In this document: piece after piece, positions 111 to 4,960 of the stretch
Layout: each line of letters opens with the position of its first letter
Position numbering within the stretch: the stretch's first letter is position 1
Assembly: GCA_003248845.1 (NCBI GenBank)
Contig: QFPD01000035.1
Span: forward strand, 1-10,578
Reading direction: 5' to 3'
Length of the DNA stretch: 10,578 bases
Origin: Microbacterium sp.
GTDB lineage: Bacteria; Actinomycetota; Actinomycetes; Actinomycetales; Microbacteriaceae
Notes under the pieces: model-generated
Told to the model about the DNA's origin: nothing
Databases searched by the model: none
What the model saw: the letters and a program-made list of their open reading frames with translations, nothing else
Translations under genes and position numbers: made by a program

Positions 111-773
111 TCAGGAGAGCGTGACGAGGCGCAACTGCGTCGCGCGGATGAGGACCTGGATGCGGTCCCGCACGCCCCACTTGGCCGTGATGCGGCCGAG
201 GTGCGACTTCACGGTCGCCTCCGAGACGAACATCGCTGCGGCGATCTCGGCGTTCGACATCCCCTGGGCGAGGAGCGTGACGACCTCGAGCTCTCGGTCA
301 GTGAGCTCCTCGTCGCGGCCGAGGCTGCGCGGAGTGCCGGCATCGCCGGTCTGCACAGAAGAGATGAGCTCCTTCGCGACGCGCGGTGACAGCACATACC
401 CGCCTTCGTGAGCGAGCCGCGCGGCGTCGAGGATGCGGTCGGGCGAGGTGTCCTTCACGAGGTATCCGGATGCCCCGGCGCTCAGCATCGGCACGATGAC
501 GCGCTCCGCGGAGAAGGTCGTGAGCGCGACAACTTTGATGCCCGGGAACTCCTGCGTCAGGCGGCGCGTCGCCTCGATACCGTCCATCGTCGGCATCTGG
601 ACGTCCATCAGCACCACATCGGGCTTCACCGCCCGTACGAGCGTCACGGCATCGGCACCGTTGTCCGCTTCGCCGACGAGCTCGAACCCGTCCGCCGACT
701 CGAGGAACACCCTGAGCGCCGCACGGACCAAGGACTCGTCATCAACGATGATCACGCGAATCACATCTGCCAC
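111..773 (-). CDS. NarL/LuxR-family two-component response regulator
   Basis: A 220-residue DNA-binding response regulator, a normal length for the NarL/FixJ class. The receiver domain covers about residues 5-120: acidic pair D11/D12, phospho-acceptor D57 in the run LMDVQMP, switch residue T85 and conserved lysine K107 in YLVKD. A LuxR-type helix-turn-helix covers about 157-212 (LTDRELEVVTLLAQGMSNAE, then VSEATVKSHLGRI). The start is GTG 773, with AGGAT in the leader eight bases upstream; GTG 764 is an alternative. It is divergent from the histidine kinase that starts near 1009 and is almost certainly its partner: the kinase would phosphorylate D57, and the dimerised regulator would bind promoter DNA. 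The palindromes at 838-907 in the shared control region are natural candidate sites, although binding is inference. The regulon and the stimulus cannot be read from the sequence. Confidence 0.95.
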   Translation of the reverse strand: MADVIRVIIVDDESLVRAALRVFLESADGFELVGEADNGADAVTLVRAVKPDVVLMDVQMPTMDGIEATRRLTQEFPGIKVVALTTFSAERVIVPMLSAGASGYLVKDTSPDRILDAARLAHEGGYVLSPRVAKELISSVQTGDAGTPRSLGRDEELTDRELEVVTLLAQGMSNAEIAAAMFVSEATVKSHLGRITAKWGVRDRIQVLIRATQLRLVTLS

Positions 774-837: not shown

Positions 838-907
838 CGACGAAAGTCGCAAACGCTCTCACCAAACGTCTGTATTCGCGAATGCCATCTGTTTGAAGAA
901 TCGATTC
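838..907. promoter_or_regulatory. Divergent control region with clustered palindromes
   Basis: Between the response regulator and the Trp-rich peptide gene lie a CGAC-GAAA-GTCG stem-loop (838-849), a direct repeat CAAACG (850-855 and 863-868, 13 bases apart), and two perfect 10-bp palindromes: ATTCGCGAAT (874-883) and GAATCGATTC (898-907). Their centres are 24 bases apart. LuxR-type regulators usually bind inverted repeats as dimers, so this is the obvious place for autoregulation. A weak -10-like GATACT lies at 832-837, with no convincing -35. The elements are seen directly; their function is inferred. Confidence 0.4.
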
Positions 908-917
908 GAGATCTTGC

Positions 918-926
918 GGAGGTGAT
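918..926 (+). promoter_or_regulatory. Very strong ribosome binding site of the Trp-rich peptide
   Basis: GGAGGTGAT matches nine consecutive bases of the anti-Shine-Dalgarno tail of 16S rRNA (ATCACCTCC). The GGAGG core ends eight bases before ATG 931, an ideal spacing. This decides the start: ATG 925 and GTG 922 overlap or abut the site and are too close. It is the best ribosome binding site in the window, better than those of parE, the sigma factor or pepA. Confidence 0.75.
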
Positions 927-930
927 GGAA

Positions 931-972
931 ATGTGGGATTGGCTCGGACGCTGGCTTGGCATCTGGAAGTAA
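931..972 (+). CDS. 13-residue Trp-rich amphipathic peptide (putative)
   Basis: ATG 931 to TAA 970-972 encodes MWDWLGRWLGIWK, with four tryptophans in 13 residues. On a helical wheel (100 degrees per residue) W2, W4, L5, W8, L9, I11 and W12 fill one face, while D3, G6, R7, G10 and K13 fill the other, so it would be a near-ideal short amphipathic helix with net charge about +1 before N-terminal formyl or amine effects. It has no leader peptide and no Cys, so if exported it would be leaderless. It sits upstream of the histidine kinase and divergent from the response regulator. Possible roles, all inferred: a signal sensed by the kinase, a membrane-active toxin or bacteriocin-like peptide, or a small membrane regulator of the kinase. 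A leader ORF or a severed kinase N-terminus are alternatives, because its frame is that of the kinase. I do not recognise it as a named family. Confidence 0.55.
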   Translation: MWDWLGRWLGIWK

Positions 973-996: not shown

Positions 997-1002
997 GATA
1001 AT
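997..1002 (+). promoter_or_regulatory. -10 element of a possible leaderless kinase promoter
   Basis: GATAAT, one base from the TATAAT consensus, ends six bases before GTG 1009. With normal -10 to start-site spacing the RNA would begin at or next to the GTG, i.e. a leaderless message, which is common in Actinobacteria. No good -35 hexamer is visible (about 974-979 reads ACGACG). This supports GTG 1009 over TTG 991 as the kinase start. Confidence 0.45.
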
Positions 1003-2178: not shown

Positions 2179-2240
2179 TGATCAACGATCCCACGAAGTA
2201 GACAAAAGTAGGAGTGCTTTCCATCTTTCGGCGAGCCTGC

Positions 2241-2313
2241 GATGATGCACGCCTCCGTATCATAGTGAATGCCGAAGGATCGGTCCCCAGCTGGTCCTTC
2301 AACGAGCATCATC
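2241..2313 (+). ncRNA. Candidate structured RNA in the 3' region of the kinase transcript
   Basis: An outer perfect 8-bp inverted repeat, GATGATGC (2241-2248) with GCATCATC (2306-2313), encloses an inner hairpin. In the inner hairpin 2274-2283 pairs with 2291-2300 in ten pairs, two of them G-U, around the loop TCCCCAG. The G-U pairs become mismatches on the other strand, so the fold favours a plus-strand transcript. A 25-base single-stranded arm containing CCTCC lies between the two stems. It could be a 3'-UTR element, a small RNA or a poor terminator. I see no known RNA family. The structure is seen by eye and has not been tested by covariation. Confidence 0.35.
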
Positions 2314-2394
2314 CGTGACGCTTCGTGATTTCGGGGACGACGGGAGCGATTCGCACCGTCGTCATCACGAGCGACATGTGGATGCCGCGGCGAT

Positions 2395-2430
2395 GGCCCG
2401 AAACCGATCCCCCCAGCTCGGTTTCGGGCC
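2395..2430. terminator. Perfect 13-bp hairpin, likely bidirectional terminator
   Basis: GGCCCGAAACCGA (2395-2407) and its exact reverse complement TCGGTTTCGGGCC (2418-2430) flank a 10-base loop. It sits between the convergent histidine kinase and parE genes, where a shared terminator is expected. The following T-tract is poor in both directions (CCGCGTCTTT on plus), as is common for hairpin-type terminators in high-GC Actinobacteria. Confidence 0.65.
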
Positions 2431-2442
2431 CCGCGTCTTTCT

Positions 2443-4621: not shown

Positions 4622-4675
4622 CCGGTCATCGGCGAGGTACGCGCACAGCGAAATGTGACCGGATCGCGGCATTTC
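4622..4675. promoter_or_regulatory. Overlapping inverted repeats upstream of the DUF7455-like gene
   Basis: CCGGTCA (4622-4628) is matched by TGACCGG (4656-4662). GAAATG (4650-4655) is matched by CATTTC (4670-4675). Both lie in the 193-bp divergent space between parE and the small zinc-ribbon gene, so one may be an operator and the other a leader hairpin. A weak promoter-like pair, TTCCGC then TATGTG with 16 bases between, begins at 4673. The repeats are seen directly; their role is inferred. Confidence 0.3.
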
Positions 4676-4741
4676 CGCAACATCCGCGTGGTTGTATGTG
4701 AGGCAATCGCATCGAGTCGCACCTATCGAGGAGGAACCGAA

Positions 4742-4960
4742 ATGAGCATGTCGACCACCGCAGAGCCCGCCGTCCTCGAGTACCGCCTCACTGCGACGGA
4801 CCGGTGCGACTCCTGTGGCGCCCAGGCATACATCGCCGCCGAGGTGAACGGAAGCGAGCTGCTGTTCTGCGCGCACCACGGCCGCAAGTACGAGGAGAAG
4901 CTGCGCGCCGTGGCGACGACCTGGCACGACGAGACCGCCCGTCTCGCCGAGGCCCGCTGA
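4742..4960 (+). CDS. DUF7455-like small zinc-ribbon protein
   Basis: A 72-residue protein with C22-x2-C25 (CDSCGAQAY) and C43-x2-H46 (FCAHH), a spacing that suits binding one zinc ion. This matches the short actinobacterial proteins of the DUF7455 type, which usually read TAADRCDxCGAQA...LLFCAHH and lie near parE or the primary sigma factor gene. Their function is unknown. The start is clear: GAGGAGG at 4728-4734, seven bases before ATG 4742. A second in-frame ATG lies two codons later. It is divergent from parE and 54 bases upstream of the ATP-grasp gene, which has its own promoter-like TAGACT. The C-terminus (about residues 50-70) is charged and probably helical. No membrane segment or signal peptide is present, so it is probably cytoplasmic. 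Confidence 0.85.
   Translation: MSMSTTAEPAVLEYRLTATDRCDSCGAQAYIAAEVNGSELLFCAHHGRKYEEKLRAVATTWHDETARLAEAR

Follow-up and report, generated by a model that had tools for sequence, protein, structure and literature searches.

The question raised by this locus is whether a 13-codon open reading frame (ORF) just 5′ of a sensor kinase gene in Microbacterium is a real gene and, if so, what its product would do to the kinase. The stretch analyzed is a contig of 10,578 bp, referred to as the window, and its features are collected in Table 1. The initial annotation had described here a Trp-rich amphipathic peptide gene with a near-perfect ribosome binding site, and had proposed a circuit of peptide, kinase and response regulator. 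On sequence grounds, it is near certain that the peptide gene is real and that it is paired with the kinase. Kinase relatives were sampled via protein search and from named genomes (19 loci from the latter), and the set of 20 close loci comprised the window, L001-L015 (fetched by name), L037, L038, L041 and L045. One record among them, L013, is filed as Stenotrophomonas maltophilia P13 but carries a Microbacterium-like module, and its assembly is probably contaminated. The ORF, its ribosome binding site and its stop codon read in the window as had been claimed, and an ORF of 13-15 codons preceded by GGAGGTG was found at the same place in all 20 distinct loci of the kinase clade, with start and stop retained. 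Among the 14 thirteen-codon sequences, 21 synonymous and 31 non-synonymous changes were counted for the called frame on a minimum spanning tree, a dN/dS of 0.32 (binomial p = 1.1e-4); the other two frames gave 1.34 and 1.50. Judged by this pattern, the peptide frame is under purifying selection and the ORF is a gene. The conservation of the whole intergenic block would also fit a chance ORF inside a conserved promoter region; this explanation was rejected and is extremely improbable in view of the frame-specific selection, of replacements that keep the residue classes, of the fitted-motif counts given below, and of the same core found before distant kinases. Since the conserved block upstream changes reading frame between clades, the ATG before MW was taken as the start, and an upstream in-frame start (MFEESIRD...) was rejected on the same ground.

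Table 1. Features of the peptide-kinase locus in window coordinates.
Feature	Position	Strand	Basis
NarL/LuxR-type response regulator	111..773	-	Pfam Response_reg and GerE; divergent from kinase
Putative regulator box GACGAAAGTCG	839..849	.	Pattern 92-93 bases before peptide ATG in 18/20 loci
Leader block GTTTGAAGAATCGATTCGAGA	891..911	+	Near-invariant in 20 loci, conserved as DNA
Ribosome binding site GGAGGTGAT	918..926	+	GGAGGTG kept in 20/20 loci
Peptide gene	931..972	+	Reads MWDWLGRWLGIWK, then TAA (970-972); same-place ORF in 20/20 close loci
GATAAT, probable -10 of separate leaderless kinase promoter	997..1002	+	ATAAT before kinase start in the 20 loci
DesK-like sensor kinase, 389 aa	1009..2178	+	HisKA_3; start GTG at 1009
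Second putative box GACAAAAGTA	2201..2210	.	3′ of kinase stop
TATCAT, -10 of RNA gene	2258..2263	+	TANNNT starting 12-14 bases before RNA start, 20/20
Structured non-coding RNA with C-rich hairpin loops	2271..2432	+	z -5.52, covariation, fixed box distance

Two further arguments of the initial annotation, the conserved Trp positions and the clean segregation into polar and hydrophobic faces, did not hold. Tyr replaces W8 in the nearest relative L001 (93% kinase identity), Phe replaces W12 in L006 and L007, and Trp is absent altogether from the peptides of L011, L012, L013 and L045. The Eisenberg moment of the window peptide (0.45) is not above chance, as 20% of same-residue shuffles reach the same value. 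Among the losses in close relatives that had been named as grounds for dropping the gene, that of single Trp codons was indeed seen, whereas ORF, start, stop and ribosome binding site were all retained. Four Trp codons in 13, in an ORF whose start lies 78 bases 5′ of that of the kinase, would also suit a translated leader (attenuator) that makes the kinase gene respond to Trp supply or to translation. However, relatives lose Trp yet keep other residues, the kinase probably has a leaderless promoter of its own (6 of 15 distant loci also have [GC]ATAAT 5′ of the kinase), and no common RNA fold was detected among eight leader sequences, L006 and L008 alone folding alike. Peptide relatives of at least 51 residues likewise argue against Trp attenuation, which was rejected and is very improbable.

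Members of the same peptide family were recognized upstream of related kinases, either with the core W-x-x-L-C-x-x-L-G-I-C-K or as secreted-looking precursors ending in a Cys pair. Kinases 26-43% identical to that of the window have two-Cys peptides at the same place, examples being the C-termini MRELCRLLGICK (L055) and WTALCRLFGVCN (L057) and the whole peptides MYTICQWLGLCV (L059) and MWNWLCYQLKICA (L016). In a gapless 12-residue alignment, the window sequence WDWLGRWLGIWK shows Gly and Trp at the positions occupied by Cys in the others, and the peptide types WDWLGRWLGIWK, WYWLGQLIGIWK and FYVFGKMIGIFR were distinguished. The precursors of deeper relatives are 51-67 residues long and end in or near a CX5-6C pair (the start of L083 is unclear). 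Six precursor types from seven loci (L079, L080/L100, L105, L082, L083 and L085) possess a hydrophobic N-terminus and, by eye, an AxA-like site, which is consistent with export. Pfam returned no family for the three precursors scanned, and two homologues of one secreted precursor were found.

To place these forms, a tree was built of 81 hand-chosen kinases, whose loci comprised 26 with a Cys-less peptide, 22 with a Cys-bearing peptide, seven with a signal-peptide precursor and 26 without a peptide; 55 of the 81 thus have a family member upstream of the kinase. The tree left out the near-duplicates L053, L063, L069, L095, L099, L110 and L111 and repeats of the same place, also L089, L097 and L117 and, by no strict criterion, other control kinases (L119-L121, L123, L125-L138, L141, L142 and L150-L156). 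A Cys-motif screen of the excluded L117, L119-L121, L123, L125-L138 and L141 yielded none. At L117 (G118), a Cys-less-like ORF with a GTG start was noted next to a kinase that matches in part, and this module may be decaying. A plasmid search gave no matches. ORFs bearing the peptide motif occurred in 26/26 Cys-less, 21/22 Cys-bearing and 5/7 signal-peptide loci, in 0/26 peptide-less loci and in 13 of 4860 shuffles, the motif and the locus labels having been fitted to the same loci that were scored. On the tree, the Cys-less state requires two origins. One is the window clade of 20 (support 100/100), to which the Cys-bearing L016 and L049 form the sister pair (pair 87/74, whole 100/99); the other comprises L066, L078 and L101-L104 (100/100), beside the Cys-bearing L071 (89/89). 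As read from this topology, the window peptide form has lost both Cys residues, in one of two such losses. The peptide-less kinases fall mostly (20/26) in one other part of the tree, along with the long-branched precursor locus L085, and the other six (L017, L019, L052, L054, L077 and L081) lie amid peptide-bearing kinases.

The relation between peptide and kinase was then analyzed by correlating their distances, with p = 0.0005 being the floor of 2000 permutations and some tree effect being left by the Mantel tests. Peptide distance followed sensor distance given the catalytic part in 48 loci (partial r 0.43, p = 0.0005) and in the 20-locus clade (partial r 0.73, p = 0.0005). After removal of catalytic protein, catalytic DNA, regulator and ParE, the sensor still gave a partial r of 0.65 (p = 0.0005, n = 14), while the same test gave 0.15 (p = 0.16) for the catalytic part, 0.21 (p = 0.05) for the regulator and -0.07 (p = 0.70) for ParE; this set was 14 of 16 rows, with L014 (regulator empty) and L007 (ParE short) dropped. 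By these measures, peptide change follows the membrane sensor of the kinase and not the catalytic part, the regulator or ParE, and the peptide looks like a real, formerly unannotated signalling peptide that has co-evolved with the adjoining sensor kinase. The sensor correlation, the 55 of 81 loci and the divergent regulator at 53 of these give good support to the circuit of peptide, kinase and regulator proposed initially, though not to the Trp-specific and amphipathic arguments attached to it.

The window kinase combines a HisKA_3 domain with a DesK-like fold, as expected of the DesK/HPK7 family. Its AlphaFold2 model (pLDDT 82.7, pTM 0.52) shows six helices with short loops before the catalytic part, hydropathy gives five membrane segments, and the best Foldseek matches of the model are to DesK, the core being DesK-like. 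The window regulator carries the receiver and GerE domains of the NarL/FixJ family; the regulators of other loci were recognized from a short receiver motif only, and by this motif a divergent regulator accompanies 53 of the 55 peptide-bearing loci (not found for L018, and L100 lies outside the count checked). At the 26 peptide-less loci, the regulator is downstream on the same strand in 17, divergent in three (L017, L052 and L054) and not found by the pattern in six. The module of the window clade sits between a parC-like gene on the left (read in L002) and parE. A small DUF7455 protein (window 4649-4957) adjoins parE.

We consider it probable that the locus encodes an autoinducing peptide-kinase-regulator circuit with a structured RNA as output and the peptide as dedicated ligand of the kinase. 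Sequence evidence supports the gene, its family, the two Cys losses, the covariation of peptide and sensor, the repeated boxes, and the RNA with its promoter; export, binding, phosphotransfer, recognition of the boxes, what the RNA targets and whether the feedback is positive or negative are inferred, as follows. The 13-residue peptide would serve the adjoining six-helix DesK-like kinase as its dedicated ligand; it would reach the membrane, by an export deduced from the relatives, and engage the short-looped sensor, upon which the kinase would phosphorylate the divergent NarL regulator. The regulator would bind GACGAAAGTC-type boxes before the peptide gene, giving positive or negative feedback, and at the box after the kinase it would activate a structured RNA. 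The targets of this RNA would be G-rich sites in mRNAs, paired by its C-rich loops. Export of the peptide and its action as an autoinducer are likely, the export route being the weakest link, as the window peptide has neither an export signal nor Cys in its 13 residues. The same lack of an export signal in the 13-mers would suit a non-secreted regulatory subunit that enters the membrane from the inner side and keeps the kinase active or inactive, as MgrB acts on PhoQ, with no cell-to-cell signal. The short-loop sensor, which suggests intramembrane contact, fits such a subunit too, and the covariation test is blind to inside versus outside. On the other hand, the precursors of at least 51 residues resemble, by eye, type I signal-peptide proteins whose mature part is long, the Cys pairs suggest an extracytoplasmic disulfide, and bacteriocin-type genes, typical neighbors of autoinducers, adjoin a few loci; a subunit acting from inside is unlikely.

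The 8 kb 3′ of the kinase were read in 20 loci, with the proteins of four submitted to family search. In L016 (Cryobacterium sp. Y50) and its sister L049, the next gene 3′ of the kinase encodes a daptide recognition protein (259 and 280 bits, respectively; cut-off 150). L049 continues with a daptide dehydrogenase that scores just at its cut-off of 300 and then a piece of an ABC ATPase. In L059, class V lanthipeptide genes were recognized from two peptides with an LxmA leader (26 bits against a cut-off of 25) and from LxmK (333 bits against 315), and in L051 the kinase gene and class I lanthipeptide genes are convergent. The family search of L057 gave an ABC ATPase and a hydrolase, and one membrane protein from a fifth locus, in the L080 genome, had no Pfam match. 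After the kinases of L080/L193 and L057/L182, small hydrophobic proteins that look by eye like bacteriocins are followed by membrane or ABC proteins; the small proteins had no family match over the cut-off. The link to ribosomally synthesized and post-translationally modified peptides (RiPPs) is a minority pattern, since most other loci have housekeeping-looking neighbors (by eye), and no bacteriocin or RiPP cluster was seen in the window.

A cationic, aromatic and short peptide, with bacteriocin-type genes adjoining a few related loci, could also be an antimicrobial or toxin, with the two-component system sensing and answering the damage or the peptide. Against this, L059, L049 and L016 keep the small upstream peptide alongside separate RiPP genes after the kinase, no immunity gene was recognizable by eye in the parC-parE interval of the window, and the covariation of peptide and sensor is tight, which together make a toxin improbable. 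The secreted look of related precursors, and the RiPP genes that a few related modules head or adjoin, favor a signal over a toxin. A wider extension of the autoinducer reading, for which we hold the chances to be even, is that widespread unannotated actinobacterial autoinducing peptides with dedicated DesK-like receptors and NarL regulators control daptide, lanthipeptide and other bacteriocin clusters, and that in Microbacterium a C-rich-loop RNA between parC and parE replaced the cluster, in an agr/RNAIII-like arrangement of independent origin. Secreted CX5-6C precursors would then have been shortened in places to 13 unprocessed residues.

A repeated box and an RNA gene 3′ of the kinase were both missed by the initial annotation. 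The box is of the type GACGAAAGTC; three of the 18 close loci bearing it before the peptide read GACAAAAGTC, and L009 and L010 have GCCGAAAGTCG at that position. After the kinase, a box lies 14-40 bases from the stop codon in 20/20 close loci. Boxes at both places were found in 18/20 close loci, 24/55 peptide-bearing loci of the tree and 0/26 peptide-less loci. Cys-type loci mostly lack the pattern (present before the peptide in 8/22 and after the kinase in 6/22), and in the second Cys-less clade it is absent before the peptide in 6/6 and after the kinase in 5/6. A search for the exact box in 10 genomes returned 21 sites, namely eight before the peptide, one before the RNA and 12 elsewhere; the exact pattern missed most RNA boxes because it requires A at the 14th base. 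Eight of the 12 other sites have almost the same sequence (the one tested example, L157, is 23S rRNA) and four are in coding-like frames. A wider regulon defined by the exact box was rejected, the off-locus sites being one repeated near-identical sequence or coding-like frames, though weaker boxes may occur. The leader block contains a 10-bp palindrome, and its frame relative to the ATG differs by clade. Its 16-base core has one exact copy, at the locus, in 10 of 12 genomes and no exact copy in the genomes of L016 and L018; a broader leader pattern gave five matches in 398 genomes, two of them at the peptide locus, and was too broad. No TANNNT was seen in the peptide promoter at a distance from the box matching that of the RNA gene.

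The RNA begins with GCCGA, 69-71 bases from its box in 20/20 loci, is 162 nt long and ends in a GC-rich hairpin; a terminator scan of it made no calls and saw no U-rich tail. When folded from 2271 to 2436, the window RNA is far more stable than shuffled sequences (z -5.52), and its hairpin loops read CCCCA and CCCCCA. RNAalifold on the 20 sequences predicted 35 pairs, 12 of them with double changes. In the 27 pairs that were counted (four helices, with the outer closing helix and one four-pair helix left out), 96.5% of cells pair and 12 pairs are double-changed; 42 double-changed cells were observed versus 12.8 in shuffles, none of 500 shuffles reached 42, and slid controls gave at most nine. 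An ORF of at least 10 codons preceded by a Shine-Dalgarno sequence was present within the RNA in one of the 20 loci (L007), so that no ORF is conserved. Rfam gave no match at gathering thresholds and, with E up to 10, three chance-level matches only. A model of the RNA found 10 matches in 139 genomes of the genus, nine of them strong (98-166 bits), each in a close-kinase genome and adjoining that kinase. The weak match (G442:C1:1313949-1314024, 34 bits) lies in a genome with no kinase among the matches listed. In 38 distant loci, the best match of the model was not significant (E 0.12). An RNA gene with a box-bearing promoter is very likely on this evidence, and the circuit in this genus appears to switch on a structured regulatory RNA.

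Among the closest known systems is agr/RNAIII of staphylococci, in which a peptide, a membrane kinase and a regulator are likewise accompanied by a structured RNA whose hairpin loops are C-rich; by sequence, the RNA here shares its box pattern with the promoter region of the peptide. In contrast to agr, the window peptide lacks the Cys that a thiolactone would need, the kinase is of the HisKA_3/DesK class with a NarL regulator, and the RNA is 162 nt long with no conserved ORF. AgrB (PF04647) was found in neither of two genomes (G002 and G004), in a search that gave a signal in one of 14 controls and a pass over the cut-off in none, and hence had no clear positive control. The peptide proposed here would resemble the pheromone plantaricin A, a short membrane-active peptide linked to bacteriocin production; the plantaricin A system uses a different kinase class, and the 13-mers here differ from it in having no leader. 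A C39 peptidase (PF03412) was found in neither G002 nor G004, while 8/14 control genomes passed. The MgrB-type regulators of PhoQ are tiny peptides acting on one sensor kinase, and the present family would resemble them in this and resembles them in the Cys pair of many members; it differs in that the peptide is encoded beside its kinase, precursors have apparent signal peptides, and a repeated box comes with a probable RNA output. B. subtilis DesK senses the state of the membrane, and the window kinase shares with the DesK family the catalytic fold and the HisKA_3 domain but has a cognate peptide gene. The actinobacterial 6C RNA has C-rich hairpin loops and an actinobacterial host in common with the window RNA, which differs in being tied to a peptide-kinase module and gave no match to the 6C model of Rfam at gathering or at E up to 10.

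In Bacillota, peptide cell-to-cell signalling via two-component systems is the rule, whereas we know of no established family of this kind in Actinomycetota. In published accounts, coa mRNA is bound by two C-rich loops of RNAIII, one of which contacts its ribosome binding site (PMC2837412), plantaricin A meets lipid first and then its kinase (PMC6543913), and 6C is a C-rich-loop RNA of an Actinobacterium (PMC9569102). Neither 'histidine kinase' nor 'two-component' occurs in the main text of the daptide paper as available (PMC10036551), nor 'histidine kinase' in the available text of its follow-up (PMC12338566). A 2026 quorum-sensing review gives gamma-butyrolactones for Streptomyces and, in the places found, no actinobacterial peptide system (PMC13220807); the relevant places in a paper on competence of Micrococcus luteus do not mention such peptides (PMC8467076). 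The literature matches listed, mostly open-access with few preprints, contained nothing on this peptide family, for which no name was found. If the proposed circuit is true, staphylococcal peptide sensing would have an actinobacterial counterpart, from a signalling family hidden in genes below the size of standard callers, and an independent pairing of a peptide-kinase system with a C-rich-loop RNA would be open to direct comparison with agr/RNAIII. As the peptide has only 13 residues, it can be synthesized and added, and a short synthetic peptide may then wake silent RiPP clusters such as those of daptides.

RNA-like elements were also observed after kinases outside the window clade. In the other Cys-less clade, L066 and L078 have structured RNAs with a CCCCA loop after the kinase (z -7.2 and -4.5), which we regard as a resemblance only since the window RNA model does not match them; no such RNA was found 3′ of the kinase in L101, L102 and L103. 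At L064 and L065, a box ACTTTGGT stands before the peptide and again after the kinase, and 3′ of the second box a G-rich CCGGGGGGAG with a strong hairpin is perhaps another RNA (z only about -1.2).
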